Shown here piece by piece: positions 28,700-44,561 of a DNA stretch of 44,746 nt. Every line of letters begins with the position of its first letter. The stretch's first letter is position 1. Origin of the DNA: Ignavibacteria bacterium (GTDB lineage: Bacteria; Bacteroidota; Ignavibacteria; Ch128b); the NCBI GenBank assembly GCA_016873845.1, contig VGVX01000014.1, forward strand, positions 1 through 44,746, in the 5' to 3' direction. The notes under the pieces are model-generated. The model did not search any database. It saw only the letters and a program-made list of their open reading frames with translations, and was not told the origin of the DNA. The translations under genes were made by a program, and so were the position numbers.

Positions 28700-28714
28700 G
28701 CATAAAGGAAAAAC

Positions 28715-31096
28715 TTGAACCTAAATAGTAAATTTTTCCCCGACCTAATAAAAACATTTTCTTCCGCAGGTTTTGGTATTTGCATTGTCGACACAAAATT
28801 CAATATTAAATGGGCTAATGATGTTCTTACATTTTGGTACGGTAAAGATTACATAGAAAACCACACCTATCATAAAACGATAAACAATTCTGATTCCGCC
28901 GAAATTTGTACGCCTTATCGTGCCTTCAAGGATAATAAAATTATTTCCGAAGAAGAATATGATCCCAACAATAATCGATGGTTCTTGGCTACTGCATATC
29001 CAACTAAGGACGAAAACACATCTGAACATATAGCCATTGTACTTCTTGAAGAAATTACTGAGAGAAAATCTGTCCTCGAAAAATATCTTTCGCAATTAGA
29101 TATGCTTGATAATGTTGAGGATGCTATTTATACAACTGATTTCAATAACCGTATTCTTTTCTGGAACAAAGGAGCTGAAAAGATCTATGGCAGGAAGTCA
29201 AATGAAGTAATTGACAAGATTATAAATAAAGATTTTAATTTATTCCCGGAGCCGGATACCGAAGTAATACTACAAATGACCAAGGAACTGGAAGTTTATC
29301 GAACTTATTATTTTTTGCGCGAAGAATATAAAGCGGACGGTTCGGTCATGTGGGTTGAAGGGAATGTTTCTTTGCTGAGTGATATTACTGATACACCTCT
29401 GGGTTTAATTTATATTTCAAGAGACATTACCACGCGAAGAAATTCAGAAAAATTAAATCATTTAAATGCACGGCTTCAAAGAGATTTAAGAGAAATTTCT
29501 TCATTATTACTGAGTGGAGCCGAGCTCCATACTCTCGAAAAAGAAATTCTATCAAGGTGCGTAAATCTTACAGAAAGTAATATTGGAATACTTGCCAATG
29601 TAAGCGATGAAGTAGTAGATATTTCTTCATCTTATTCTCATTTAGAACAATCTGATAAATTGGATGTAACTACACATCTTCAAAAAATATATGAATGGAT
29701 TACATTAAACAGCTCGAGTTTCATTTCCGACAAGGAAGACGATAAGGAGATATCACTTGCAATTAAGAGAATATTAAAATCGAAGGATATCATTGTTTCG
29801 CCCATTACAGTCAAAAAAGAAATTATTGGTTTGATTTTAATAGCAAGTTCGAAATTTGAATTTTTCAAAAACACTATAGATGCTTTGAACTCATTCATTT
29901 CGATTTATTTGTTCGTACTTAATCACTTTGATAGAAAAAGATTTCAAGAGACATTAGAAGATAAATTAAGACAAACTCAAAAATTTGAAACTGCTACAGC
30001 ACTTTTAAGCGGGGTTGTTCACGATTTTAATAACATTCTTACAGGAATCCGCGGCGCTATCGGTCTTCTAAAGCATAAAACTATCGACGAAAAAAATATC
30101 GAATACATTAATAGTATCGATTCTTTGTTAGACCGAGGCACAACTCTATCTAAAAATCTTTTAAATGTCGGAAAACCAACTCCGCCAGAGAAGAGTGTTT
30201 TCACTGCGGAAAAAATAATTGAAGAAGTAACTCACTTTATCAAACAAATTCTTCCAGCTAGAATTCAACTTGAAGTTTCCCTTTCAGAAAATCTCCCGAA
30301 GCTCGAAGCCGATTATTCGCAATTGCATCAAGTTTTAGTAAATATTGTATTGAATTCCAGGGATGCTATTTCAGATACTGGTAAAATCTCAATTAACGCA
30401 GATATAAAAAGTTTTTCCCAAAACGATTACAATCAAAATGCTAACATAAAAGTCGGTAGATTCTTAGGCATATCAATCTCAGATTCAGGATCCGGAATTA
30501 CGAAAGAGCACTTGAAAAAAATATTCGATCCTTATTTTACGACCAAAGATAGCTCGAAAGGAACTGGACTTGGATTATTCGTTGCTTATAATATAATCAA
30601 TTCGCACGGCGGTTTTGTAATTGTTGAGAGTGAGCTTAATGAAGGGACAACTTTTAATATTTATCTTCCTTATAAAGCAAGTTCTTTAGAAGCTTCCGCG
30701 GTAAAAAACTCAAGAAATGCGACTCACTCAGGCACGATCCTTCTCGCTGACGATGAGAACACCATAAGGACTCTTCTTTCTGAAATGTTGAGATTGCAAG
30801 GGTATAAGGTTTTAGAAGCTAGTTCGGGAGCTGAAGCAATCCATTTATTCTTAGCTGAACAAGAAAAAATAGATCTTGCAATCCTGGATTATCACTTAGA
30901 TGATATGAATGGCTTTGATGTTTTACAATCAATTGGTGAAGTGAATAAACTGTTTCCAATATTTATAGCTACTGGTGTTACGGAAGAAAATATTATTGTT
31001 AACTTAAAATCAATTGGTGTAACGAGGATAATTGAGAAACCCTACGAATTTGAGAACTTATTGGATTTAATTGATGCAACTCTTACCGGCGAGTAG
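28715..31096 (+). CDS. Hybrid histidine kinase with PAS, GAF-like and receiver domains
   Basis: 793 residues, starting at TTG (28715) four bases after AAAGGAA. No transmembrane helix is evident, so it is a soluble sensor. Two PAS domains (about 5-120 and 125-245, with DITTRRNSEK at the end of the second), then a GAF-like region (about 260-410). The dimerisation segment has His436 in VVHDFNNILTGI. The ATPase domain carries NIVLNSRDAI (N box), DSGSGI (G1), FDPYFTTK (F) and GTGLGL (G2). The C-terminal receiver domain has Asp725 in AILDYHLDD. It probably phosphorylates the preceding sigma-54 regulator and possibly the receivers encoded convergently, whose gene ends 3 bp away. Confidence 0.93.
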   Translation: MNLNSKFFPDLIKTFSSAGFGICIVDTKFNIKWANDVLTFWYGKDYIENHTYHKTINNSDSAEICTPYRAFKDNKIISEEEYDPNNNRWFLATAYPTKDENTSEHIAIVLLEEITERKSVLEKYLSQLDMLDNVEDAIYTTDFNNRILFWNKGAEKIYGRKSNEVIDKIINKDFNLFPEPDTEVILQMTKELEVYRTYYFLREEYKADGSVMWVEGNVSLLSDITDTPLGLIYISRDITTRRNSEKLNHLNARLQRDLREISSLLLSGAELHTLEKEILSRCVNLTESNIGILANVSDEVVDISSSYSHLEQSDKLDVTTHLQKIYEWITLNSSSFISDKEDDKEISLAIKRILKSKDIIVSPITVKKEIIGLILIASSKFEFFKNTIDALNSFISIYLFVLNHFDRKRFQETLEDKLRQTQKFETATALLSGVVHDFNNILTGIRGAIGLLKHKTIDEKNIEYINSIDSLLDRGTTLSKNLLNVGKPTPPEKSVFTAEKIIEEVTHFIKQILPARIQLEVSLSENLPKLEADYSQLHQVLVNIVLNSRDAISDTGKISINADIKSFSQNDYNQNANIKVGRFLGISISDSGSGITKEHLKKIFDPYFTTKDSSKGTGLGLFVAYNIINSHGGFVIVESELNEGTTFNIYLPYKASSLEASAVKNSRNATHSGTILLADDENTIRTLLSEMLRLQGYKVLEASSGAEAIHLFLAEQEKIDLAILDYHLDDMNGFDVLQSIGEVNKLFPIFIATGVTEENIIVNLKSIGVTRIIEKPYEFENLLDLIDATLTGE

Positions 31097-31099
31097 AAC

Positions 31100-31798
31100 C
31101 TAGCTGCTTGTCTTTTTTGTCAAATCGTTAAAATCTATCATTTTTATTTCTCTGTCGTAAGCTGAAAGTGCAGGATTTTTTAAGGCATTTAATTTATTCA
31201 AAATTGAAGTTATGGTTGTTATACCTTCGTCAATTAAAGCAACTTTTTCTTCTAACACTTTTTTGCTCAAATCTTTTTTGTTCAATTCGCGTTTTACTGC
31301 ATTTAGTGCGAGTGACATTAAAGTAAGCGGCTGCTTAATTTCGTGATTAGCAGTAACTACCGTAGCTTCATAGATTTGATATTTTTCATTACGAATGGCT
31401 CTTTGCTGATATTCAGCAAATCTAATTGCTGAATTAATGCGTGCAATTAATTCAACTTTATCGAATGGCTTTTTTATATAGTCGAAAGCACCAACTTTCA
31501 AGCCCTCTTCCACATCTTTCGCATCAACTTTTGCAGTTACTAAAATAATTGGAATTAATGCTGTACTGGTATCTTTTGAAAGCTGCCGGCAAACCTCGAA
31601 TCCATCCATTACTGGCATCATGATGTCAAGAAGTATTAAATCTGGTTTTTCGCCTTTTGCTTTTTCAATTCCATCCTTTCCTGAAAAAGCTGTCAGCACG
31701 AGAAAATTCTCATGCTGCAATCTTGATTGAAGATAATAAACGTTATCAGGACGATCATCGATTACGAGAATTTTATATTGTTCGGATTGAGTTATCAT
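31100..31798 (-). CDS. Receiver domain fused to a lone HisKA-like helical domain
   Basis: 232 residues. Residues 1-125 are a receiver with the acidic pair DD14-15, phosphoacceptor Asp58 (LILLDIMMP), and Lys in YIKKPF. From about 135 the protein is helical, with a histidine motif at 152 in ANHEIKQPLTLMSLAL, the pattern of the histidine kinase H box (H-E-x-x-x-P). The ATPase domain that normally follows is absent, since the protein ends about 80 residues later. It could act as a histidine-phosphotransfer unit or dimerise with the kinase. It is the last gene of the pilus operon, overlapping the upstream single receiver by one base. Confidence 0.85.
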   Translation of the reverse strand: MITQSEQYKILVIDDRPDNVYYLQSRLQHENFLVLTAFSGKDGIEKAKGEKPDLILLDIMMPVMDGFEVCRQLSKDTSTALIPIILVTAKVDAKDVEEGLKVGAFDYIKKPFDKVELIARINSAIRFAEYQQRAIRNEKYQIYEATVVTANHEIKQPLTLMSLALNAVKRELNKKDLSKKVLEEKVALIDEGITTITSILNKLNALKNPALSAYDREIKMIDFNDLTKKTSS

Positions 31799-32169
31799 TA
31801 TTGTGAATGTAAAACTTTCCTTATAGTGATTAGCAGTTCATCAAGATCATAAGGTTTGCTTAAGAAATCCGTTGCCCCCAACCGACGAGATTCCATTGCA
31901 TCTTCAACATCTGCGTAACCAGTCAGGACAATTACTTTACCAGGATACCCACGCTTGTTTAATTCCTTAAGAACATCGATACCGTTTACATTCGGCATTC
32001 GGAGGTCTAAAAGTATTAATTCAAAAAATTCATTTTGGAGCCGTTCAAGCGCCTCTGCTCCATCGTTTGCTACTTGGGTATCATATCCTACAGAAGTTAA
32101 TTCTTCTTTGAGGATAGTTGTCATTTTTATATCGTCATCGACTACTAGGATTGTTTCTAAAGCATTCAC
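31798..32169 (-). CDS. Single-domain response regulator (CheY/PilG-like)
   Basis: 123 residues, just a receiver domain: acidic residues at 11-13 (VVDDDIKM), Asp55 in LILLDLRMP, Thr in VLTGYAD, and Lys105 in FLSKPYDLDEL. There is no output domain, so it should work by protein contact, as CheY or PilG/PilH do. It lies 13 bp after the secretin gene and overlaps the next gene, so it belongs to the pilus operon. Control of pilus extension or retraction ATPases is a reasonable inference. Confidence 0.9.
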   Translation of the reverse strand: MNALETILVVDDDIKMTTILKEELTSVGYDTQVANDGAEALERLQNEFFELILLDLRMPNVNGIDVLKELNKRGYPGKVIVLTGYADVEDAMESRRLGATDFLSKPYDLDELLITIRKVLHSQ

Positions 32170-32182
32170 TATAACTTACCTT

Positions 32183-33445
32183 TTATTTTTCGTCAATTGG
32201 CGTCATTTGATGAATCTTAAAGTCTTTATTATACTGATCACGTCTTTCTTGGATCAGATTTTTGTCCTGTTTTTTTTCTGCAAACCGTTCTTCGAGAGTT
32301 GGGTTTAATTTCGCTTTAAGTAAGATTATCAATTCCTTTTTGGCTGACACTTTTGAATCGAATCCAGCTAAATATCTTATACCAAACACCCACCATGGTA
32401 AATCTTTCAGTATTGGAATACCATTCCTTTCAACCTTATCTTCTGTTATATACAAACCGCCAATAATAGTCTCTTCTCCATCAATTAAAATTACATTGGT
32501 AGAAGCTTTCGTTTTTTTGATCTCAGTAGTGATCTGGCCTGGTATTGCAGAGCTTCTCTCAGCATCAAGATCGATTAAAATGTAATTCTTCCCATCTTCC
32601 TCAAATACGTATGGAGTGACCCTAATAATCGTACCAGTATTATAAAATCTTTCAACAGTATTACCTGCAAAGTCTTTTTCACGGGTTGAGAAATCTGCAC
32701 CTACTTGAATCTCTCCCTTCATCCGATCTCTCACAGAGATTTGCGGCGATGCGATAATTTCACCCATCTGATTCTGCTCGAAGAAGTTAAACATCGCAGT
32801 TGCCTTACCAAACATTCCTAATACGTCATTTGACTCAGTACTTACACCCAAGTTAAAAGTTTTCTCCTGTTGAGCTGTACCAGTAGTTGTTGATGTACCT
32901 CCGGTAGGATCCAATAAAGTTGGATCAACTTTACCTAACTCTCCTCCGAAATGAAACTTATTATTTTTACTGGAGAGCAGCCACTTCCAATTCATTCCCA
33001 CATCTTTTGACTTCTGCACATCAAGCTCAAAAAATACTGCTGAGATACTCACTTCCCTAGTGGACATATCTACACCTTTCATCTCCTCAGGCATAGTGAG
33101 CAATCCAGCTTTTTTTGGAAGAATTTTAAAATATTCCGGCGTCTCGGCAAATTCCAATCCCTTATATTTAAGAATCAGCAGCAAAGCTCTGTACCAATTC
33201 ATTGAGACTATGTCAATTCCGATTGGCTCAATAATTTCTTCACTAAGAACAATAATCTTACTCATGTACTGCTTACTTAATTTGCTGAGCATTTGCATTG
33301 CCTGATTAAACGGAAGAGATCCGGATAACGACACTATCTCTTCAGGAGCATTTGACACAATAGTTCGAATTTCTCTTTGACTTTGAGCAGGAGCCATCGA
33401 AGTAGTTAAAAAGAGAACGGCAAAAAAGTAAATAAATGTTCTCAT
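32183..33445 (-). CDS. Short type IV pilus / type II secretion secretin (PilQ/GspD-like)
   Basis: 420 residues with a signal peptide (MRTFIYFFAVLFLTTSMAPA). Residues about 25-110 form a short N-domain (SLPFNQAMQMLSKLSKQYMSKIIV, STN-like). From about 125 the secretin core follows: VSISAVFFELD, GEIIASPQISVRDRMKGEIQVG, TGTIIRVTPYVFEEDGKNYILIDLD and the late KKELIILLKAKL. It should form the outer-membrane pore for the pilus. Compared with PilQ (about 600-700) it is short and lacks AMIN and extra N domains. It is encoded after the PilO-PilP fusion, overlapping by 4 bp. The charged C-terminal tail (about 40 residues) may dock to a partner. Confidence 0.85.
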   Translation of the reverse strand: MRTFIYFFAVLFLTTSMAPAQSQREIRTIVSNAPEEIVSLSGSLPFNQAMQMLSKLSKQYMSKIIVLSEEIIEPIGIDIVSMNWYRALLLILKYKGLEFAETPEYFKILPKKAGLLTMPEEMKGVDMSTREVSISAVFFELDVQKSKDVGMNWKWLLSSKNNKFHFGGELGKVDPTLLDPTGGTSTTTGTAQQEKTFNLGVSTESNDVLGMFGKATAMFNFFEQNQMGEIIASPQISVRDRMKGEIQVGADFSTREKDFAGNTVERFYNTGTIIRVTPYVFEEDGKNYILIDLDAERSSAIPGQITTEIKKTKASTNVILIDGEETIIGGLYITEDKVERNGIPILKDLPWWVFGIRYLAGFDSKVSAKKELIILLKAKLNPTLEERFAEKKQDKNLIQERRDQYNKDFKIHQMTPIDEK

Positions 33446-34335
33446 TGTTTAGTCTCCTTTACATTGAAACTTTTTAAGTCTAAAACAATTTTTTCAACTA
33501 TACCGCCGCGATTAAGCATGAATTCGCATTTTTGACGGTCGTAATCAATTTTAGTTAAGTATCCCAGATAAACGGGATCGCCTTCCATAAGAGTGTAAGA
33601 ATTTCCATTTTTATCCATAATGAATACTCCATCAGGAATGATTGCAAGTAAAGATGCACCTTCAACTTCCAGCAGTTCTTCATAATTAGGGGGAATATCG
33701 GGCGTAATGAGAGGATAAAAGTAGTCAGAAATTTTAAAATATTTTTTATCCGATGCCTCTTCATAATTTAGTGCAAGATTTTTATCGGAAGTAAAGTAGG
33801 AATCTAAATTAATATTAAACAATACTTGGTATAGAATCTCACCAGAACCTTTCGTTAACGTTGAATTTTTCAGATTCACACTTTTGATTTTATAAAGTTT
33901 TTTCGACTTCTCCAATTCATATAATAGCCTAAAAACGTCATTAAAATCTCCCTGTCCGTGTAAAATGAAATGATCAATTGAAGCAGCACCAACCGGCTCT
34001 GTGTTTTCATATTCTATGTCCATCCGTGTATATGGAGTAAAATATTTAGAAATTCTGATCACATCATTATACGTATCAGTCATTGATTCGCGAAATGGGA
34101 TTGCTTTCGTCCTATTGAACAAAATTGAATCAATCCTTTCCGATTCACGGGTTAATGAATCGTATGTAATCGCCAGAGCTTTTGTATCAGTGAATTTTTG
34201 ATTCAACTCATTCAACTGTACATTCTTTGCTTTAAGTGTTTTTGGCTGAGAAATAAATATGTAATAACCCGCACCAAGACCGATTACAAGAAATAATATT
34301 ATCAAAATTATTGTGTTTCTAGTTTCATGACTCAT
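33442..34335 (-). CDS. PilO-PilP fusion, type IV pilus alignment protein
   Basis: 297 residues. Residues 8-28 are a single membrane helix (TIILIILFLVIGLGAGYYIF), followed by a coiled coil (about 32-75) and a PilO-like ferredoxin fold (about 95-185, ASIDHFILHGQGDFNDVFRLLYELEKSKKL). From about residue 215 comes a PilP-like beta domain (LLAIIPDGVFIMDKNGNSYTLMEGDPVYLGYLTKID). In classical systems PilO and PilP are separate, with PilP binding the secretin. Here the next gene is the secretin, overlapping by 4 bp, so a fused alignment protein would connect inner-membrane PilMN to the pore directly. The PilP assignment rests on order and beta pattern, not on a strong motif. Confidence 0.7.
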   Translation of the reverse strand: MSHETRNTIILIILFLVIGLGAGYYIFISQPKTLKAKNVQLNELNQKFTDTKALAITYDSLTRESERIDSILFNRTKAIPFRESMTDTYNDVIRISKYFTPYTRMDIEYENTEPVGAASIDHFILHGQGDFNDVFRLLYELEKSKKLYKIKSVNLKNSTLTKGSGEILYQVLFNINLDSYFTSDKNLALNYEEASDKKYFKISDYFYPLITPDIPPNYEELLEVEGASLLAIIPDGVFIMDKNGNSYTLMEGDPVYLGYLTKIDYDRQKCEFMLNRGGIVEKIVLDLKSFNVKETKQ

Positions 34336-35867
34336 GGCGCTAATCCCCTGTATCCATATTTATCTGGATTCATATTAATTTCGAATTTGTTTACACCACG
34401 TTCTCTAATTTCTTGACTGATTATATTTTTCAAAATGGAGTTCTCTAAATAATCTGAAAAATCTGGAATGATATGCCGATTAATACCAACACCTTGTATA
34501 TTTACGCTTCCATCGGTTGCAGCGATATTTGTGATCCAGATCTTCTTACTTTCAGGATGAAATTCCTGAATCTTTTTCAAAATGTTGGTCCACATCTCTG
34601 CCCCTTGAACAAGTGTATCAAGCGTTTGCTGAATTTGAAGTCCAGATTCTATTCTCCATTGAAGCTGTTCCACACGGCTGACCATCTCAGCGTTCTCTGT
34701 AATCACTAATTGCTTGTTATCAATTTGCGATTGAACATTTGCAATCTCTTTATTATTTCCAACAAACCTTTGAGTGAAGAAAACCACCATCAAAAATATT
34801 AGAGCAAGAAGTGCATATCCAAGTGTACCAAGTTTAAATACTCGCTGTGATTCTCTAACAGATTCAGGAAGTAAATTAATTTTTGGCAGAGCCTTTGTGT
34901 CAGGCTTGAGATAATTCAGAACAGGCAGAATAGCTAATGTATAGACAGGAATCTGAGTTCTTTTTTCCTCACTGAGTCTCGTCAGATCCCATCCGTTAAA
35001 TTGAAGTATCTCAATATCAGATAGTGGAAAGCTGCCATAAAAAGTCAGTTGTATAGTCGACTCAATTACTTCACCACATAAAAAGATTTTATGCAATTCA
35101 GCAATTTGAGCCATATCCATCTCTAAGGATATTTTACTTATAATTGTGTCGTGAAATCCATGAGTCTGAATTCCCACGCTGAGGTAATCAGACATGTGCT
35201 TAATCTTGTTATCCTGAATGAATATTAATCTCGAAGATTCAACACCGACATAGGCAATGAGATAAGTTTTCCCTTTTTCAAGATGATATTTTTTCAATAC
35301 ATGATCGGCGAGTAATGCATCGGCACTTGTGATGTACGGAATTTTTAAGTTCTTTACGTTAAAACTTGCAGCAATATCATCAAGATGCTTAAGAACAGGG
35401 AAATATTCATTCGTATAAATGGAAAGTATGTTCCCATCTCCAAAATCAACAGAATTGATATTTTCAACAGATGCAGAAGATTTCTGTGACTCAAGCCATT
35501 TCTCGAGCATCAATTTTTTTAGATTTTTAGCATTTAGCTTTTCTACATTGGATAGTAGATGGTACGAAACATGCGGTTCGCTAACACTCGGGATGAATAC
35601 CAAATCTTTAATTCGATACCTAGATAAAGAACCAACTAAAGGATTCTCTGATTTATCTTCAAGCTTGCTTTCGTCCTCAGTGAGAAGAATTGCAGAGTCA
35701 TCAACAACGAATCCTTCTTCATTTGTTTCTGCCTTAAATTCAAAATCTCTAAGCCCCGCACCGCCAAAAGAAAACAGTTCTAAAATCGATAGCTTAGCCC
35801 CCGATTTCTCAAGAATGGCGACTTTTGTCTCGGGTCCATCAACAAAAATTCCAACGATTTTTTTCAT
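34332..35867 (-). CDS. PilM-PilN fusion, type IV pilus assembly protein
   Basis: 511 residues. Residues about 1-320 are an actin-like fold of the PilM/GspL type (IVGIFVDGPETKVAILE ... LIAYVGVESSRLIFIQDNKI), with a PilM-type C-terminal lobe ending in LAILPVLNYLKP. A conserved-looking segment ALPKINLLPESVRESQR, the PilN N-terminal motif that normally binds PilM, comes next. A membrane helix (about 346-368) and a coiled coil plus PilN fold (about 375-511, NIQGVGINRHIIPDFSDYLE) complete the protein. PilM and PilN are usually two proteins; GspL in type II secretion is a natural fusion of similar parts. Genes overlap on both sides by 1-4 bp. Confidence 0.8.
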   Translation of the reverse strand: MKKIVGIFVDGPETKVAILEKSGAKLSILELFSFGGAGLRDFEFKAETNEEGFVVDDSAILLTEDESKLEDKSENPLVGSLSRYRIKDLVFIPSVSEPHVSYHLLSNVEKLNAKNLKKLMLEKWLESQKSSASVENINSVDFGDGNILSIYTNEYFPVLKHLDDIAASFNVKNLKIPYITSADALLADHVLKKYHLEKGKTYLIAYVGVESSRLIFIQDNKIKHMSDYLSVGIQTHGFHDTIISKISLEMDMAQIAELHKIFLCGEVIESTIQLTFYGSFPLSDIEILQFNGWDLTRLSEEKRTQIPVYTLAILPVLNYLKPDTKALPKINLLPESVRESQRVFKLGTLGYALLALIFLMVVFFTQRFVGNNKEIANVQSQIDNKQLVITENAEMVSRVEQLQWRIESGLQIQQTLDTLVQGAEMWTNILKKIQEFHPESKKIWITNIAATDGSVNIQGVGINRHIIPDFSDYLENSILKNIISQEIRERGVNKFEINMNPDKYGYRGLAP

Positions 35868-37135
35868 TACATTTTACTCGCTAATAATTGTTGAATTCTC
35901 GTTTTTTGATTTGCATAAGATATTGCGGTTTCATAAGTAATTCGTCTCTGGCGGTATAACCGAGTTAAATCCTGCTCCATCGTGATCATTCCATGCTCAT
36001 TCCCCTGGTGAATCATCTGATAGATCTCAGTTGTATTATTATTTCTAATTGCTGATTTAACAGATGACGTTACAACTAAAACCTCTTTAGCCAGTGCACG
36101 TTTCCCATCAACAGTAGGAACCAGTTTTTGGGATACTATGCAGCGAAGTACGTCTGCCAATCGGACACGCACTCTCTCTTGCTCATTTACTTCTATCTCT
36201 CCAATTATTCTATCAAGTGTTTCAACGGCAGAAGAAGTATGCAATGTTGAAAAAACTTTGTGACCGCTATCGGTAACATCAAGGGCAGCTACTATTGTGT
36301 CGTTATCGCGAAGCTCGCCGATAACAATAATGTCTGGATCCTGCCTTAATGCTTGAATGGTGCCTTCTTTAAATGAAAGTACATCACGTCCAACTTCTCG
36401 ATGCCTTACTATACATTTGTCTGATTTGTGAATATATTCGATAGGTGAACTGATTATTATTATATGTCCGTTGGATGCATGGTTATTCTCATCAATTATT
36501 GAATCCAGCGTAGAAGATTTTCCCGAGCCGGTGATTCCAGTGACTAAAATCATTCCCTCTTTCAAAAAATTGATGTTCATGAGTTTTGCGACACTCGGAT
36601 GTAACTCCAAGGCACTGAAAGGTCTAATCGTTGCAAGAATTGCACGAACATTTAATGACAATTCATCAATTTCAAAGTATGAATCTGCTCGATATCGATA
36701 TTCTCTTAAAAATGGTTTCTCTTCCCGTATATCAATTGAAAAATCTAGATTTCTGTATTGCAGCAGAAGTTCGGTCTGCTTTTCAGTAAGTACGTTGAGA
36801 ATAAAAACATTCATTTCTGTGTTTGTGAATTCTGGCAGATGACCCATGGGCTTTTTATTCCCGTGTATTCTCATCCAAAACTTGTTTAATCCTCCAGCTC
36901 CTCCAAAATCCAAATCGGATGCTTCAACTCTATGCATATCAAAAAGAATCGACTCGACAAATTTCCTAAGCGCAGCCCTCTTTACTAGGTTCATCTCCTC
37001 AAGGAAATTTCTACAAAATAAGATTTTTTCCACACCACGGACCTCTTTCGGCACGTTTTCATTCAAATTGGAGATAATCTCTCGAACGTCCTTTACTAAT
37101 ATTTCAAATTCTTTTGTATTCGTTTCTATGAACAT
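35867..37135 (-). CDS. pilT: PilT-like twitching/retraction ATPase
   Basis: 422 residues. Walker A GITGSGKSST at 200-209, an Asp box IIIISSPIEYIHK, Walker B DPDIIVIGELRD and His box STLHTSSAVETLDRI identify a secretion/pilus ATPase. A C-terminal SAIRNNNTTEIYQMI segment corresponds to the AIRNLIRE motif of PilT retraction ATPases. There is a longer than usual N-terminal region (about 70 residues before the PAS-like domain). It starts one base after the PilB stop and overlaps the PilM-PilN gene. It powers retraction; a PilU-type accessory role is an alternative. Confidence 0.87.
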   Translation of the reverse strand: MFIETNTKEFEILVKDVREIISNLNENVPKEVRGVEKILFCRNFLEEMNLVKRAALRKFVESILFDMHRVEASDLDFGGAGGLNKFWMRIHGNKKPMGHLPEFTNTEMNVFILNVLTEKQTELLLQYRNLDFSIDIREEKPFLREYRYRADSYFEIDELSLNVRAILATIRPFSALELHPSVAKLMNINFLKEGMILVTGITGSGKSSTLDSIIDENNHASNGHIIIISSPIEYIHKSDKCIVRHREVGRDVLSFKEGTIQALRQDPDIIVIGELRDNDTIVAALDVTDSGHKVFSTLHTSSAVETLDRIIGEIEVNEQERVRVRLADVLRCIVSQKLVPTVDGKRALAKEVLVVTSSVKSAIRNNNTTEIYQMIHQGNEHGMITMEQDLTRLYRQRRITYETAISYANQKTRIQQLLASKM

Positions 37136-37136
37136 A

Positions 37137-38930
37137 CTATTCTTCCGTTGTTGAAGATACCACCTCTTCTAAAGTAGTTAAACCATTCTGTACACGAATA
37201 AATCCTGATTCACGGAGCGTTAACATATTGTCTTTCTTCGCCTGAATACGCAATGCTTCTTCATCAATATCGGAACCTGCATTAACAATCAATTTGCGTA
37301 TATCTTTCGAAAAATAGAGAGCCTCGTGAATTGCCATTCTTCCCTTGTAACCGGTATTTGAACAAATAGGACAACCGACTGCTTCATAGAAGTTTGTTTC
37401 TTCAACTTGTTGTTTTGTCATACCAGCGGCTTTCGCAAGTTCCTTATCAAAACTCTTTGCTGGTTTTTTGCAGTTTTCACAGAGCTTCCTGATCAATCTT
37501 TGTGCTACTATAATATTTATTGCATAGGCCAAGAGGAATGGTTCAATTCCCATTTTAAAAAGACGGGAGACCGCGCTTGGGGCATCATTTGTGTGAAGAG
37601 TTGAAAAGGTGAGGTGACCGGTATTGGCTAATTTGATTGCGATCTCCGCCGTCTCTTTATCTCTCATTTCTCCTACCAGGACGATATCAGGATCATGCCG
37701 TAGAATTGATCTGATCGCCTGTTCAAAATTCATTTTTGGTCCGATTTTTAATTGCCTCGCACCACGAATTACATACTCAACAGGATCTTCAACAGTTAAA
37801 ACGTTTACTGTTGGATCTATTACTTGATAAAGCGCGGCAATAAGTGTTGTGCTTTTTCCAGAACCAGTCGGTCCGGTCATAATAACCATCCCTTGTGGTT
37901 TACTTATTGACCTCATGAAGAAGTCATTCGCAACTCCATCGAAACCAAGCTTTTTAATATCAGTTATAACTTTTCTATCGTCAAGAATTCTAATTACGCA
38001 GGATTCAAACTTCGTGCTCAACTCGGTTCCAACCATCGGAAGAATTGAAACTCTAAACCGAATGATTGTACCATCAATATTTCTCTGGATGAATCCATCT
38101 TGGGCAGATTCTCTCTCGAAACGATCTAAACCTCTCGACCTATCTTTGACTACTGATAATACCGCTTCAGGATATGTGTTTTCTTGCACATGCCAAAGTG
38201 AAAGATTGCCATCAACACGGAAGTGAATTTCCGTCTTCATCCCTGATTTTGGGACAAAATGAATATCACTTACACCTTTTCTGACACCTTCAACTAAAGA
38301 GGCTTCTATCAGATTGATCAATGCACTTTTGGATATCTCTGCTTCAAGTGCGGCTTCATCGATTCCTTCTTCTTGAGCCTGTTCAACCGCAATTTCTTCA
38401 GAAACTTCTTCAAACATTCTCAAGAATGGATTATCGGGAGGAATAACTTTATTTATTACGTCGTCATAATCTTTTTTTGTGATGAAAATAATTTCGTACT
38501 TGCGTGCTCCAAAACCAGCAGCGATTTGCGAAATGTACCTGTTCGTTGGATCAGTCGATGCAATGATCAGCTTATCCTTCATTTTTGGATCAAAGGATAT
38601 CGGAATAATTCTATTTTCAAGACAATATGCTTTCGAGGAATCCGGTAATTTATCCATTAGCTTTTTGATAAATTCAAGTTCCTTATCAGCTAACGGATAG
38701 GAATGTGTACTGAATATTTTGAAAGCATAAATATTTGCAACTTCATGAAAAATCTGATCGTGATCGAACTGAAAATCTTGAACAAGAATTTGAGCAAGAT
38801 TTCGCCGAGGGACAGATTTGTCATTGCGTTTTGTTTGGAGCGCTTTTTCTAATGTCGGAAGATCAATCAATCCTTTCCGCAGCAGCCAAAAACCAATTTT
38901 ATCAGTTTGCTCTAAAGTCTCGATGCTCAT
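37137..38930 (-). CDS. pilB: PilB/GspE-type pilus extension ATPase
   Basis: 597 residues. N-terminal GspE-N domains (about 1-160) precede the ATPase core. Walker A GPTGSGKSTT lies near residue 352, followed by LTVEDPVEYVIRGARQ (Asp box), DPDIVLVGEMRDKETAE (Walker B) and STLHTNDAPSAVSRL (His box). A tetracysteine zinc motif CENC...CPIC follows, as in PilB and GspE. It drives addition of pilin subunits at the inner membrane with the PilC platform encoded 2 bp upstream. Length is within the family range (about 560-600). Confidence 0.93.
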   Translation of the reverse strand: MSIETLEQTDKIGFWLLRKGLIDLPTLEKALQTKRNDKSVPRRNLAQILVQDFQFDHDQIFHEVANIYAFKIFSTHSYPLADKELEFIKKLMDKLPDSSKAYCLENRIIPISFDPKMKDKLIIASTDPTNRYISQIAAGFGARKYEIIFITKKDYDDVINKVIPPDNPFLRMFEEVSEEIAVEQAQEEGIDEAALEAEISKSALINLIEASLVEGVRKGVSDIHFVPKSGMKTEIHFRVDGNLSLWHVQENTYPEAVLSVVKDRSRGLDRFERESAQDGFIQRNIDGTIIRFRVSILPMVGTELSTKFESCVIRILDDRKVITDIKKLGFDGVANDFFMRSISKPQGMVIMTGPTGSGKSTTLIAALYQVIDPTVNVLTVEDPVEYVIRGARQLKIGPKMNFEQAIRSILRHDPDIVLVGEMRDKETAEIAIKLANTGHLTFSTLHTNDAPSAVSRLFKMGIEPFLLAYAINIIVAQRLIRKLCENCKKPAKSFDKELAKAAGMTKQQVEETNFYEAVGCPICSNTGYKGRMAIHEALYFSKDIRKLIVNAGSDIDEEALRIQAKKDNMLTLRESGFIRVQNGLTTLEEVVSSTTEE

Positions 38931-38932
38931 CG

Positions 38933-40306
38933 TTAGAATAGTCCCGTTATAAAGTTGATAAATTGAACTCCTGGGGTCTTCGGGCGAATTGTTGCTGTTT
39001 CAGCGGAAACAACTGTCAACGCTGTAATTACTACCATAATTATCATGGCAATTACCAATTGAATTCCCTCAATTAAATATTTCAGTTTATGAGTTGTTTC
39101 GCTTTCATAATAATTCGCAATCTGAAGTGCCGAATTTTTTACGGTGCCCGTTTCTTCACCCGAGTGAAATCTTGACAAAGCAGTTTTTGAAAAAACTCCA
39201 GATGCTTCAAAAGCATCAGTCAGGCCCTTCCCTTCTTTGATCATCAAAGGGATCGCAACATTTTTTATTCGATCTTCGAAATATTTATTCCCTGATGCCT
39301 CGGCTGCAATTTTTATTGGTTCGATATTTTCTGCTGATCCCGTATATAAAGAATAAAACACACGGCAAAAAATTTCAATTACTGTTTTGTGAACCAAATT
39401 TCCAATGATCGGCATTTTAATCATGTAACGATGAAGAACTATTTTCCCCTGATGAGTCGAACTATAATAGAACAATCCAATTGCAGGAAGGAGGAATGCT
39501 AAAAATAGATAGAGATAATTATCTTGAATAAAGTAGCTAAGATCCAGTGTTGCAGCGGTCATTGGAGGTAATTCGATGCCAAAATTCAGAAATAATTCGG
39601 CAGTAGCTGGAAAAACTTCGGCAATATAATAGAGGCAGGTCAAGATCAAAACTACTATTGTGATGGTTGGTGTCAACATAGCACTTTTTAAATTCTTTCT
39701 AAATTCCTGCTGCCTCTCAAGAAATTTTGCTGTGGCTGTATAAACTTCAGCCATATTACCGCTCTTCGAAGCCAGACCCAGCATGTAGCAGGTAAAATTG
39801 CCAAATACATTTTCGTACCGCCTAAAAACTTTTTCACTGTCTTCACCTTTTTTCAAATCATTGTTGATTTCCCTCAATGATTCACGTAAACTTTTATTTG
39901 TCACGTCATTGATCATTAATTGAAGAATTTCACCATAAGAAAGCTTTCCGTTTAATAGGTCTGCGCTGATTCTTACAAACGAAACTATATCCGAAGTAGG
40001 CGGTTTCATTTGGAAATCGAAAAGTTTCTTTCTAACGTATATTACCTGATACCCAAGTTTTAATAATGCCTCTTCAACTTCCTTCCGTGTATATGCTTTC
40101 TGTTCACCGTAGATAGGTTTTGGAGTGCCGGATTTTTTAACCTTGTAGAAAAAACCAGATTTTTTCTTAATACCCTTGATTACAAGCTTATTCCGTGTAG
40201 CTACTTCCTTGACTTTTTTCTTAGCTGTAAATATGTTGTTACTGTAAATTATTCCAGCTACGTTTTTACCAGAAGTTGTAATAGCATTAAATCTATATTC
40301 AGCCAT
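38933..40306 (-). CDS. pilC: PilC/GspF-type inner-membrane platform protein
   Basis: 457 residues, slightly longer than usual because of an N-terminal extension (residues 1-85, YRFNAITTSGKNVAGIIYSN, with a second KxVEEALLKLGYQVIYVRKK unit). Two T2SSF domains follow (about 105-225 and 310-440), each with a hydrophobic helix. Motifs such as FVRISADLLNGKLSYGEILQ and FSKTALSRFHSGEETGTVKNSALQIANYYE are the typical paired repeats. It forms the membrane platform rotated by PilB. It starts 16 bp after the upstream pilin gene and leads directly into pilB. Confidence 0.9.
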   Translation of the reverse strand: MAEYRFNAITTSGKNVAGIIYSNNIFTAKKKVKEVATRNKLVIKGIKKKSGFFYKVKKSGTPKPIYGEQKAYTRKEVEEALLKLGYQVIYVRKKLFDFQMKPPTSDIVSFVRISADLLNGKLSYGEILQLMINDVTNKSLRESLREINNDLKKGEDSEKVFRRYENVFGNFTCYMLGLASKSGNMAEVYTATAKFLERQQEFRKNLKSAMLTPTITIVVLILTCLYYIAEVFPATAELFLNFGIELPPMTAATLDLSYFIQDNYLYLFLAFLLPAIGLFYYSSTHQGKIVLHRYMIKMPIIGNLVHKTVIEIFCRVFYSLYTGSAENIEPIKIAAEASGNKYFEDRIKNVAIPLMIKEGKGLTDAFEASGVFSKTALSRFHSGEETGTVKNSALQIANYYESETTHKLKYLIEGIQLVIAMIIMVVITALTVVSAETATIRPKTPGVQFINFITGLF

Positions 40307-40322
40307 TATTCACACAAATTCA

Positions 40323-40706
40323 TCAGTTGTTAATTGTAACAATAATTCCCGCAGTTGTAACTACTGCAGTAGCTTTTACTTTAGCCGAACCATCATTCCC
40401 AGTTTCATTCCCAGTTCCGATTATCGTTACGGTTTGCGCGGCTACAGTCGCAGTAAACGTTCCATTACCGGTTGTATCGATATTAACTGGGATTGTCCAT
40501 CCAGTGAAAGTATTCCCACCTCCTCCCATTCCGGTTGGAGTGCGATAATATTGGTGTGCAAAATTAGCCAATGTATTAAGATCTGAAATTAATCCATCTC
40601 GATTCGCACTCTGAGCGCTTGTAGTTGCAATGTTAATTCCTACAACGATTGCGATTCCAACTATTATCACTCCGAGCACAATTAATAACAGTTGCTGTTG
40701 ACCCAT
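40323..40706 (-). CDS. Pilin-like protein, copy 1 (first gene of pilus machinery operon)
   Basis: 127 residues. The start is fixed by AAAGGAGTTCCGAA just upstream and by an in-frame stop a few codons before. The N-terminus MGQQQLLLIVLGVIIVGIAIV is a hydrophobic helix preceded by only Met-Gly; if the prepilin peptidase cuts after Gly2, the mature protein begins QQQLL and has no Glu at position 5. A helix continues (SAQSANRDGLISDLNTLANFAHQYY), then a Gly-rich loop (PTGMGGGGNTF) and a small beta domain. It is 85 percent identical by my hand count (19 differences) to the neighbouring copy 2. Its gene leads into pilC with a 16-bp gap, so it is transcribed with the machine genes. Confidence 0.8.
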   Translation of the reverse strand: MGQQQLLLIVLGVIIVGIAIVVGINIATTSAQSANRDGLISDLNTLANFAHQYYRTPTGMGGGGNTFTGWTIPVNIDTTGNGTFTATVAAQTVTIIGTGNETGNDGSAKVKATAVVTTAGIIVTINN

Positions 40707-41007
40707 TTTCGGAACTCCTTTTTACTTTTCAGTAATAATAAATTATCACCAACACTCAGTCTTTTCATAAAAGAAACTGTTATAATATAATCAGTTATAA
40801 CAATTAATTAAAGACATTTCCTAAATGCAATTATATAAAAATTTATATCATTGTCCAGTAAAAAATTTAGAAATTTTTCTTATTAAACTACCCCACCACA
40901 GTGAAAGCTTCCTTCCCATTTTAAGCATGAAATAAATAAAGCCCTAAAAATGAAAAAGCCCCTGATAACAATAACAGAGGCTTCGCTTCTTTGTAAATCT
41001 ATAAAAG
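40707..41007. other. Gap between the two pilin genes
   Basis: 301 bp without a gene. It holds the copy 2 terminator (40956-40983) and the expected promoter of the pilC-pilB operon. A direct repeat GTTATAA occurs at 40779-40785 and 40794-40800 (15-bp spacing), a possible regulator site. Confidence 0.5.
40956..40983 (-). terminator. Terminator after pilin copy 2
   Basis: Read on the minus strand: AAGCCTCTG, a 10-base loop, CAGGGGCTT (nine pairs, one of them G-U), then TTTCATTTTT. It starts 24 bp after the stop of the pilin at 41008, so copy 2 can make a short abundant transcript. Confidence 0.8.
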
Positions 41008-41391
41008 CTAATTATTAATCGTTACTGTAATTCCTGTAGGAGTGACTATTGCAGTAGCTTTAACTTTAGCCGAACCATCATTACCGGTTTCAGTTCCAGT
41101 TCCAACTATTGTAACTGTTTGTGCTGCAACTGTTGCTGCGAATGTTCCATTTCCTGTTGTGTCAATTGCCGGAGGTATTGTCCATCCTGTAAATGTATTA
41201 TTACCTCCACCCATTCCAGTCGGTTTACGGTAATATTGCTGTGCGTAATTTCCGATAGTATTTAAATCGGCAATCACTGCGTCACGGTTCGAACTCTGTG
41301 CACTCGTTGTTGCAATGTTAATCCCAACAACAATTGCAATTCCAACTATAATAACACCGAGCACGATTAATAAAAGTTGTTGTTGTCCCAT
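41008..41391 (-). CDS. Pilin-like protein, copy 2
   Basis: 127 residues, same length as copy 1 and identical for the first 33 residues. AAGGAG lies 8 bases before the ATG. As in copy 1 the leader is only Met-Gly and the mature helix has no Glu5. Differences concentrate in residues 34-60 and the last 20. The gene has its own terminator, unlike copy 1, so it is probably the highly expressed major subunit, with copy 1 a minor or alternative form. This inference comes from layout only. Its upstream gap (154 bp) is shared with the divergent DUF547 gene. Confidence 0.8.
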   Translation of the reverse strand: MGQQQLLLIVLGVIIVGIAIVVGINIATTSAQSSNRDAVIADLNTIGNYAQQYYRKPTGMGGGNNTFTGWTIPPAIDTTGNGTFAATVAAQTVTIVGTGTETGNDGSAKVKATAIVTPTGITVTINN

Positions 41392-41545
41392 TTATTTTCT
41401 CCTTCTAATGCTTTTTGTTAATTATTATAAAAAGTTTTATTAAATAGTTATTAGTCATAATCGTTTCTCTTCACTAATGTTATAAAAATAATATTCAAAA
41501 TCAACAAAAAAATATTATTTTAAATTAAAACGAGGTTAAAATGAT

Positions 41546-42277
41546 ATGAGACAAATCAGAGCGTTTATTCCAAAAGTTACTTTTTTTTGTATAATTCTAT
41601 TGAACAGTCTACTGGCACAAAATTTTAGTCATTTTGTTTTTAGTGAGATGCTACGTATTAGTACATACAAGGGAAAAATCGATTACAATCGTTTCTTAAA
41701 TAATACTAAATTTGATCAATATCTTAAATCTTTGTCTAATTTCAATTTAAGCAAATTGGAAAGTGAGGATGAAAAGTTAGCCTTCTTTATTAATGCTTAT
41801 AATGCACATGTAATAAAAAATGTCGTGTCGGACATTGGGATTAAAAACGTTAATAAGAACTTTTTTACTGTCCATAGATTTGTAGTAGCCGGGATGGAAT
41901 TCAATTTAGAGAGTCTTAATGATTTTATTTCATCAGAATTTCAAAATCCGTTAGTACATTTTGCCTTGATTGGAGCGGCAAATGGATTTCCATATATCAA
42001 TGACCGCGCCTATGAATCGAATTCTTTGAATAAATTTCTTGAGCTAAATTTTAAAAATTTTATACAAGATACACTAAAAAACAGATTAGATAGAAAAACT
42101 AAAACTTATTTTTTATCTGAATTATTTAAATGGTACAAAGATGATTTTGAAAGTGAAGCGGGATCAATTATCAATTTTATTTTACCTTATCTTCCTATCA
42201 ATGATAGAAGCTTCCTTAAATTAAACAAAGTTGAAATGAAATTTACTCCTTTTGATTGGACATTAAATAAAAAATAA
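41546..42277 (+). CDS. DUF547 family exported protein
   Basis: 243 residues with an N-terminal signal peptide (about 1-24, ending SLLAQ). The DUF547 core is present: KIDYNRFLNN, KLAFFINAYNAHVIKNVV, FVVAGMEFNLESLNDF, PLVHFALIGAANGFPYI, FLSELFKWYKDDF. In relatives known to me the HFAL segment is followed by cysteines (CxxxxCP); here Gly and Gly-Phe-Pro occur instead. The function of the domain is not established. It is the only plus-strand gene inside the pilus locus, between copy 2 pilin and the minor pilins, and may be unrelated to pilus assembly. Confidence 0.85.
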   Translation: MRQIRAFIPKVTFFCIILLNSLLAQNFSHFVFSEMLRISTYKGKIDYNRFLNNTKFDQYLKSLSNFNLSKLESEDEKLAFFINAYNAHVIKNVVSDIGIKNVNKNFFTVHRFVVAGMEFNLESLNDFISSEFQNPLVHFALIGAANGFPYINDRAYESNSLNKFLELNFKNFIQDTLKNRLDRKTKTYFLSELFKWYKDDFESEAGSIINFILPYLPINDRSFLKLNKVEMKFTPFDWTLNKK

Positions 42278-42347
42278 TTCTATTAATTCTTCTAAGTCCC
42301 AAAAAATATTTAACAAATAGGATCCTTAAGAGTCACATTAAGTATAT

Positions 42348-43481
42348 CTACTCAAACCAATATTGTATTTGAACTCTTTTCTGGGCAAATCCATAGCCAG
42401 AAGCATAACCGCCGCCACCACCACCACTTTTTGCAACAATCGAAGTGGCATTTTTAATCGAAGCAGAAGAAAATTTAATCCAGTGATCCCGATTACCTGA
42501 GCAATTCTTACTGGTTTCTAAGTTGGGCGATAAAAGCAAAACCGCACCCAGAATATCTAAATGGAAATGAAACATATAATCACCAATTACCAAACCCTGA
42601 AATGCATATTTTGCATGTGTTTCTTTAATCCTTGTGGTGCCACTCGGATTATGTATTACAAGAATTCCTTTATTATTTGAATAATTCCCTAATTCGATTT
42701 TCTTTTCCTGATTATTTGGAATTTCGATATAAGTTACTCCACTTAAAGGTAATGAGAGAACATTAGGATCTGTTACATACTGGCTACCTTCTGCACCACT
42801 CACAGCAATACTTTTTAATGTTCCTTCTGGATAACCCAAAATTTGATCAGGAGATGTTGGGAATGTACCGCCCCAATCATAATACTCCTCTATTGAATTA
42901 GGATTTTCAGGAAAGGAGGGTGGATAATCGATACCATTCTTTGTCCCTCCGATGTAGCCTTTCTCAGTATTAACAAAATCAACGCTAGTAGAAACTCCAT
43001 AAACTCCGGAATTAGGAATAACATTATTTTTCAGGTCATGATCTCTACCATCGATATACATATCACTGATTGTTTTATTTAATGTACTATTTGCAGTCCA
43101 AGCTCCTCTTACGACTGGGGGAACAAATCCCTTATTAAACTTAACATAAGTGGCAATATTTTTATTCACATTCATATAATTTGCGGTAACAGATATTTTA
43201 ATTAGACTATCTCCCGCAAAAAAAGTATCTATAACAGAGTAGTATGCAACCCCTCCAAAAAAGGCTTTGGATAATTGCGTTGGCACTCTCCACGAAGAAC
43301 TATCGGATAACTGTGATAGTATCATTTCGACCATGCTATTGCTAATATTTCGGGCATTTACATCACTAAAATATTCAACAGTATCTTGTGTTGAATCGTT
43401 TGTAGATCTATTTACAGTTATACTAATTACTCCAAAAATTAAAATACTGCCCAAAAGTAATATTAAAACTAATCGTCCCAT
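42348..43481 (-). CDS. Large pilin-like minor subunit (PilX-like)
   Basis: 377 residues. MGRLVLILLLGSILIFGVIS forms the N-terminal helix right after Met-Gly; AAGGAG upstream fixes the start. The helix continues with polar sequence (VNRSTNDSTQDTVEYFSDVNARNISNSM), then a long beta-rich domain, an N-rich region, and GLVIGDYMFHFHLDILGAVLLLSP near the end, resembling PilX-type minor pilins. Near the C-terminus lies a six-glycine run (SGGGGGGYASGYG). It likely caps or initiates the pilus. It is the last of three pilin-like genes with short spacings (15 and 3 bp) and may share a transcript with them. Confidence 0.7.
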   Translation of the reverse strand: MGRLVLILLLGSILIFGVISITVNRSTNDSTQDTVEYFSDVNARNISNSMVEMILSQLSDSSSWRVPTQLSKAFFGGVAYYSVIDTFFAGDSLIKISVTANYMNVNKNIATYVKFNKGFVPPVVRGAWTANSTLNKTISDMYIDGRDHDLKNNVIPNSGVYGVSTSVDFVNTEKGYIGGTKNGIDYPPSFPENPNSIEEYYDWGGTFPTSPDQILGYPEGTLKSIAVSGAEGSQYVTDPNVLSLPLSGVTYIEIPNNQEKKIELGNYSNNKGILVIHNPSGTTRIKETHAKYAFQGLVIGDYMFHFHLDILGAVLLLSPNLETSKNCSGNRDHWIKFSSASIKNATSIVAKSGGGGGGYASGYGFAQKRVQIQYWFE

Positions 43482-43496
43482 GAAAAATCTCCTTCG

Positions 43497-44072
43497 TTAA
43501 TTAAAATTTTTTGGCCTGATAATTTTTTTCCATTCGGCTCCAGTATAAACACCCTCTATTGGATATGGTGATTCAACTTTCAAATAAACGCCGATACTTC
43601 GTATTCGATTTCTATGCGTTTGACTATTTAACGATCCATAATTTATCTGACTACCGGCTGAATCATAGTATGTTAACTTGAAATTAACAACCCCTAAGTT
43701 TGAAGATTTTGGCGTTTCGTTATTATAAACCCGATACAGCAGTCTATCATTAGGGTTGGGTGTAGCTGTCAATTCAGAAGTCGAACCAATGTAATATCTC
43801 AAAGTATCTGCATTGCCGTTATTATCCATATCAGTATAAAATTTAATTTCAGTAGAATCTGCTGTAACTATTTTATTGCCGGTAATTCTGTACCCGATCT
43901 TATAAAAATCGTACTCAATTACAGCACCAAGTTCGGTAATATTTGTTTGAGCCATATTTGAGTTGATTATATCCCTCGAAGAATTTTCTATATAAAAATT
44001 TATTCCTATTATCATCAAAATTACAACAGCTCCAATTACTGTAGCAGTCAATATGTCAATGAGATTTCCCAT
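43497..44072 (-). CDS. Pilin-like minor subunit (PilW/GspJ-like)
   Basis: 191 residues starting MGNLIDILTATVIGAVVILM. A TAG codon sits directly before the ATG in the same frame, so the leader cannot be longer than Met-Gly. The mature helix again has no Glu at position 5 (NLIDI). Features such as GAVIEYDFYKIGYRITGNKI and IKFYTDMDNNGNADTLRYYIG resemble PilW/GspJ-type minor subunits. The gene follows the next pilin-like gene after 3 bp and precedes the large subunit gene. It probably helps form the tip or initiation complex. Confidence 0.72.
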   Translation of the reverse strand: MGNLIDILTATVIGAVVILMIIGINFYIENSSRDIINSNMAQTNITELGAVIEYDFYKIGYRITGNKIVTADSTEIKFYTDMDNNGNADTLRYYIGSTSELTATPNPNDRLLYRVYNNETPKSSNLGVVNFKLTYYDSAGSQINYGSLNSQTHRNRIRSIGVYLKVESPYPIEGVYTGAEWKKIIRPKNFN

Positions 44073-44075
44073 CTA

Positions 44076-44561
44076 TTAATATGAAACAATATGATATAAT
44101 TTCAATGTGTCCGTTAAACTGAAGTTAAAAACAAATACATCAATCCTTTTAGTAAAAGTTTTCGATAAACTTTTTGTCTCGGGAGTCATTTTTTGAACAT
44201 AATAAACTTGAACCTTTGTATTAAACGTTCCCATCCTTGAAAGTGAATCACTTCTTGTGAAATTATTGTAGTCATCTATATCATCGAATAGAGTACTTTG
44301 AGTTTCACCAGTTTCTGGGCCAAGTGATCCAACAGCAGTTAAAGAATTTGTGCTCGAGACTCCGCTTGTAGTCGTGTTTTCATCAAATGCTTTCATCTGT
44401 ATTTCATCAATAATCGATTGTGCTATTCCAGTGGCCGAAATTGTTGCTTCATTCACTAATGAAATTGTTATTCTGGCTGTGCTTGCCCTGTAAACTGTTA
44501 GGATAAATACAGTCAGCAGTAAAATACCAACTATTACCATTAGAGTTTGACCGGTATTCAT
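44076..44561 (-). CDS. Pilin-like minor subunit (PilV/GspI-like)
   Basis: 161 residues. The N-terminus MNTGQTLMVIVGILLLTVFI has a four-residue leader ending in Gly and then a hydrophobic helix without Glu5 (QTLMV). A helix-rich continuation (STARITISLVNEATISATGIAQSIIDEIQMKAFDENTT) resembles PilV/GspI-type proteins, in which this segment often ends with a short disordered loop. The remaining part is beta-rich. The ATG overlaps a stop of a short upstream frame, so it may be part of a longer operon that extends past the window edge. Confidence 0.7.
   Translation of the reverse strand: MNTGQTLMVIVGILLLTVFILTVYRASTARITISLVNEATISATGIAQSIIDEIQMKAFDENTTTSGVSSTNSLTAVGSLGPETGETQSTLFDDIDDYNNFTRSDSLSRMGTFNTKVQVYYVQKMTPETKSLSKTFTKRIDVFVFNFSLTDTLKLYHIVSY

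Follow-up and report, generated by a model that had tools for sequence, protein, structure and literature searches.

The pilus locus

The window, the whole stretch of 44,746 nucleotides that was analyzed, is one complete contig of an Ignavibacteria assembly (2.98 Mb in 162 contigs, 98.2% complete). Its minus strand encodes five pilin-like proteins (three of minor type, and one major-type pilin in duplicate), followed by PilC, PilB, PilT, a PilM-PilN-like fusion, a PilO-like protein, and a secretin (Table 1). The major-type copies share 85% identity and make up two of the five pilin-like genes of the locus. Profile matches identify all three machinery components of the type IV filament superfamily, namely the assembly ATPase (PilB/GspE), the platform (PilC/GspF), and the secretin. 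The components that mark a type IVa system, PilT and a PilMNOP-like alignment complex, are found as well, with PilT scoring just below its cut-off and the PilMN and PilO parts recognized by weak matches and synteny; to this extent, the inventory of the first-pass annotation (PilB, PilC, PilT, a secretin, and PilMNOP parts) holds. The weak matches suggest a PilM-PilN fusion at 34332..35867, and the gene that follows presumably encodes a PilO-like protein, whose C-terminal part may be PilP-like.

Table 1. Genes of the pilus locus in window coordinates, with the distance to the nearest upstream in-frame stop for the pilin-like genes
Feature	Coordinates	Strand	Stop upstream (codons)	Remarks
Minor pilin-like, "I-like"	44076..44561	-	4	N-terminus MNTGQTLMVIVG..., leaderless; Gln5 nearly invariant among relatives
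Minor pilin-like, "J-like"	43497..44072	-	0	N-terminus MGNLIDILTATVIG..., leaderless; conserved Asp6
Large minor pilin-like, "K-like"	42348..43481	-	5	MGRLVLILLLG..., leaderless; no acidic residues near N-terminus
Major-type pilin, copy 2	41008..41391	-	0	N-terminus MGQQQLLLIVLGVIIVG...; stop codon abuts ATG
Major-type pilin, copy 1	40323..40706	-	5	N-terminus MGQQQLLLIVLGVIIVG...
PilC/GspF inner-membrane platform	38933..40306	-		PF00482, E=8.5e-29
PilB extension ATPase	37137..38930	-		TIGR02538, 422.7 bits, under equivalog cut-off
PilT retraction ATPase	35867..37135	-		TIGR01420, 313.9 bits vs cut-off 319.1
PilM-PilN-like fusion (probable)	34332..35867	-		Weak PilN match in C-terminal part (E=0.022); weak Amuc_1101 PilM-like match (E=3.6e-5)
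PilO-like (probable)	33442..34335	-		No family match; by position and conserved synteny
PilQ-like secretin	32183..33445	-		PF00263, E=2.3e-23; top NCBIfam match PilQ

Two further features flank or interrupt this gene set. Between the major and the minor pilin genes, the plus strand encodes a DUF547 protein (PF04784, E=7.4e-14) whose N-terminus resembles a signal peptide (window 41546-42277). Next to the pilus operon, window 27323-32169 carries an NtrC-like regulator, a PAS/histidine kinase hybrid, and two response regulators; a response regulator is found downstream of pilQ in many relatives.

Fold and sequence similarity of the pilin-like proteins

The pilin-like proteins have no significant match in Pfam, NCBIfam, or the PDB sequences, the latter searched with the major pilin. 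Compared with canonical pilins, the major pilin gives marginal scores at best (Geobacter pilin, E=0.32). Profile-profile comparison with canonical pilins is likewise weak—an alignment along the helix is obtained solely for the J-like protein with GspJ-like proteins, and the register of the major pilin is ambiguous. The AF2 model of the major-type pilin shows a helix of residues 3-55 and a four-stranded sheet (pLDDT 88), and that of the J-like protein a long N-terminal helix and a β-sheet. Both models thus display the architecture of pilins, an extended N-terminal helix on a β-sheet. As Foldseek yields no significant match to the PDB for either model, the identification as pilins derives from operon context and architecture.

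Leaderless starts

Canonical prepilins bear a leader of 6-26 residues (PMC4471445). The first-pass annotation described pilin-like proteins that start with MG or MNTG and enter the hydrophobic helix at once, and all five reading frames were found as described: only one to four residues precede the helix or a conserved Gln, and none of the five proteins carries a class III signal peptide, i.e., a leader of 6-26 residues ending in Gly. Each start is the first ATG, GTG, or TTG past an in-frame stop. Longer leaders had been considered excluded for at least three of the proteins; with stops 0-5 codons upstream of every start, this extends to all five, as a canonical leader would not fit. A clear ribosome-binding site (AGGAG/GGAG) precedes three of the starts, those of both major-type copies and of the K-like protein, and none was seen before the J-like and I-like genes.

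The same picture emerges from a survey of start sites in the family, which comprised 196 distinct matches in loci, of which 194 begin at a genuine start codon. The nearest in-frame stop upstream is a median of four codons away, and within 12 codons in 179/196 matches; an in-frame ATG, GTG, or TTG occurs upstream in only nine, and a Shine-Dalgarno core is found 3-13 nt ahead of the start in 173. Short leaderless starts in this family are not due to chance. Since the survey pattern itself fixes G2, Q4, and Q5, residue conservation is better read from 25 diverse members and from families outside the Ignavibacteria.

Distribution and operon conservation

A search with the major pilin (MGQQQLLLIVLG...) recovers homologues in 101 of 297 genomes of the phylum, corresponding to 61/141 genera. 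Among 442 relatives, the nearest named records belong to the Ignavibacteria (Melioribacter, Ignavibacterium, Stygiobacter), and MAGs titled M. roseus carry leaderless pilin genes. The locus is also present in a cultured member, Stygiobacter electus 09-Me 3 (L054). The major pilin also occurs in several families outside this class and, within a second phylum to which a record titled Calditrichaeota belongs, in 11/40 genomes. The gene order pil-pilC-pilB-pilT-pilMN-pilO-pilQ is present in most Ignavibacteria loci that are long enough to show it; in some families outside Ignavibacteria, the minor pilins are placed between pilB and pilT. Pilin genes are frequently multi-copy. In two families, the PilB reading frame spans ~1,130-1,160 residues (L134:6313, L135:6341), about twice the usual length, and may hence be fused to another domain.

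The genome of the window bears a second, slim locus (L040, G000:C66:6000-15242) that consists of a major pilin with 94% identity, PilMN, PilO, PilQ, and its own I-J-K minor pilins; PilB, PilC, and PilT were not found in this stretch. Slim loci of this kind are also seen in L049, L051, and L066. A single PilC is seen in the genome (two profile matches, as expected from its two repeats), and its two pilus types may share one motor.

Search for a prepilin peptidase

A PilD-like peptidase, which the first-pass annotation had proposed to look for, did not turn up: in the genome of the window, the Pfam A24 profile gives no match at E<=10, and a profile tuned to the phylum gives none either. The archaeal peptidase profile PF06847 is without match at E<=1 in this genome and without match above cut-off in 12 other leaderless genomes. 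The N_methyl motif has no match in the genome of the window.

Across the 297 genomes of the phylum, the PilC/GspF platform is found in 142, leaderless pilins in 101, A24 in 38, and N_methyl in 26. No A24 peptidase was detected in 90 of the 101 leaderless genomes, and single-contig genomes among them likewise lack it. All 11 leaderless genomes with A24 also carry separate canonical N_methyl prepilins, and an N_methyl match occurs in only two of the 90 without A24 (Fisher P = 5e-13, relatedness ignored). Where canonical prepilins of the phylum were examined, their leaders measure 6-22 residues and Glu5 is present, the latter being required by the search pattern.

The phylum-wide Pfam A24 count is a lower bound; G088, for instance, was missed there and reaches E=5.3e-6 in another search. 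Among the 11 genomes that have N_methyl prepilins and no A24 in this count, about half show A24 at relaxed thresholds. Because several genomes with canonical prepilins had no match, the Pfam profile was insufficient, and hence a phylum-tuned profile with positive controls was used. It was built from 13 A24 proteins of both phyla, in which D81 and the Asp of the G-x-x-D motif are invariant, and it finds the divergent peptidase in 6/6 control genomes (E 2.6e-23 to 2.4e-13). Applied to a set of leaderless genomes, some of them finished, it returns nothing or weak partial matches (E 0.002-0.2). These lie mostly in frames of more than 1,000 codons, far exceeding the A24 proteins of these phyla (145-282 residues), and are not credible as peptidases. 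N_methyl matches without a detected A24 were observed in G175 and G034; the canonical locus of G175 (C4:443400-445321) holds N_methyl prepilins and a GspF gene, and neither Pfam nor the tuned profile finds A24 in this genome. A conserved extra peptidase gene beside the leaderless operons was sought and not found, and the only frequent operon neighbor is one that we take from its sequence to be an aspartyl-tRNA synthetase.

N-terminal residues and position 5

In 25 diverse members of the major pilin, M1, G2, Q4, and Q5 are invariant. The first minor pilin follows a looser pattern: Gln5 is nearly fixed, and the residue before it is G, S, A, N, or another (MNTGQ, MNSSQ, MHSNQ, MSSAQ). The first minor pilins of other families start with MAQ, MSQ, or MQQ. 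Depending on the family, Gln follows a stretch of two or of four residues. The second, J-like minor pilin has a conserved Asp, residue 6 in most members, which would become position 5 if Met is removed. In the weak profile alignment with GspJ-like proteins (E=0.0065, probability 5.9%), this Asp falls on the canonical Glu5, and residue 2 would hence be the mature +1 position. In the third, K-like minor pilin, the N-terminal region is free of acidic residues; GspK likewise has none at this position. One divergent second pilin copy (L133:5545-5910) starts with MANKELLLMI and shows a Glu at residue 5 counted from Met, where Gln5 is found elsewhere.

Glu at mature position 5 is not what these subunits present: the major pilin has Leu or Gln there, the J-like protein Asp, and the K-like protein no acidic residue. 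The earlier statement that no subunit of the locus has Glu5 is literally true, with the qualification of the conserved Asp6 in the J-like protein. Gln in the major and first minor subunits, and Asp in the second minor one, thus seem to stand in for Glu5.

The first-pass annotation went on to read the short N-termini as minimal leaders that end in a cleavage site at Gly(-1), and suggested an alignment for its invariance. That Gly is fixed in the major pilin and variable in the first minor pilin. A PilD-like cut after Gly predicts a fixed Gly before the helix, and thus a PilD-style cleavage site is unlikely. A related possibility is that minimal leaders (MG|, MNTG|) are real and cut by some non-A24 peptidase at Gly-Gln, as in archaeal G|Q prepilins; G2-Q3 of the major pilin and G4-Q5 of several first minor pilins would indeed place the same Gly-Gln junction at the cut. 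However, both the residue before Gln and the length of the preceding stretch vary in the first minor pilins, no A24 or archaeal-type peptidase was found, and the operons have no conserved extra gene. We therefore regard such processing as unlikely; the absence of both leader and cleavage is the simpler reading.

Relation to known systems

The system resembles the type IVa pilus (PilA, PilB, PilC, PilT, PilMNOP, PilQ, PilD) in combining PilB, PilC, PilT, PilMN-like, PilO-like, and secretin genes in one operon, and in subunits with a long N-terminal hydrophobic helix and a small β-domain—here taken from AF2 models. It differs by the lack of a leader, of Glu5 in the major subunit, of the N_methyl motif, and of the A24 peptidase.

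With the type II secretion pseudopilus (GspG-K), it shares the I-J-K order of minor subunits, a K-like protein without acidic residue, and a J-like Asp that aligns weakly with Glu5. Leaderless pilin-derived proteins might accordingly assemble into a short pseudopilus, used in secretion or DNA uptake, instead of a long pilus, and no pili of this family were found described in the open-licence PubMed Central literature searched. Yet, unlike in the pseudopilus, the leaderless operon conserves a PilT retraction ATPase and a PilQ-like secretin, and its pilin genes are often multi-copy, which makes this a rather improbable explanation. The canonical type II secretion system of this phylum is encoded at a different locus and has leaders and a peptidase of its own.

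MSH loci also contain no peptidase gene and may use a peptidase from another system of the genome (PMC6668835), whereas 90/101 leaderless genomes are without any detected one. Archaeal type IV pilins with class III signals often lack Glu5 as well, and many of them are exceptions to the terminal Gly (PMC4471445); they do, however, have leaders and a peptidase, and the corresponding PF06847 was not found in the genome of the window. In a 2014 census, every listed phylum with type IV prepilins had a prepilin peptidase, Nanoarchaeota excepted (PMC4471445).

An artefact—wrong start sites that hide leaders, or a PilD lost to incomplete assembly or missed by the profile—would fit the draft state of the genome and the divergent peptidases that Pfam A24 misses in this phylum, but is very improbable given the close upstream stops in the window and across the survey, the single-contig leaderless genomes without A24, and a tuned profile that catches those divergent peptidases.

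Pilins that may be born mature

Taking the leaderless reading frames, their conservation, their operon context, and the missing A24 peptidase together, the locus probably encodes a type IV pilus system with "born mature" pilins, in which leader, class III cleavage site, and prepilin peptidase are all absent. These bacteria appear to build type IV pili, which many microbes carry as retractable surface fibers, from leader-free subunits. Translation would begin where mature pilins of other bacteria start, or up to a few residues earlier, and the Sec/SRP pathway would insert the subunit N-in/C-out. Methionine aminopeptidase acts where residue 2 is small; it would hence remove Met from MG, MA, and MS starts and leave a small, unmethylated first residue. 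Loss of Met would be the sole processing, if any, and the N-terminus of the major pilin would be Gly. Minor pilins starting with MN or MH should keep their Met, so that Met removal would not follow the same rule in every subunit. PilC and PilB would then draw the subunits into the fiber via the usual route, and PilT would retract it. The Gln cluster of the major pilin (residues 3-5) and the Asp of one minor pilin might provide the N-terminal polar contacts that Glu5 makes in other systems. A non-A24 peptidase may still be encoded elsewhere, which would count against born-mature pilins.

The earlier proposal of a divergent pilin class with altered processing or docking survives in its main part, as leader, Glu, N_methyl motif, and A24 peptidase are all missing and this is conserved across the phylum; the implied minimal leader ending in Gly(-1) does not. 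Leaderless pilins were not found described in the open-licence PubMed Central literature, and the locus would represent a type IV filament system that lacks class III signal peptides.

Implications

The observation of leaderless pilins reaches far beyond the window. On balance, we lean toward an unrecognized, large branch of the superfamily in at least two phyla, in which pili are built from pilins that are mature as translated and leader, peptidase, N-methylation, and Glu5 have been given up. Cleavage of the leader by PilD is regarded as nearly universal and as one of the steps that define type IV pilus biogenesis, a view that would be overturned if this is true. If the subunits are assembled unprocessed, leader, peptidase, and N-methylation would be dispensable, and the role of Glu5 could be tested against a natural system that does without it.
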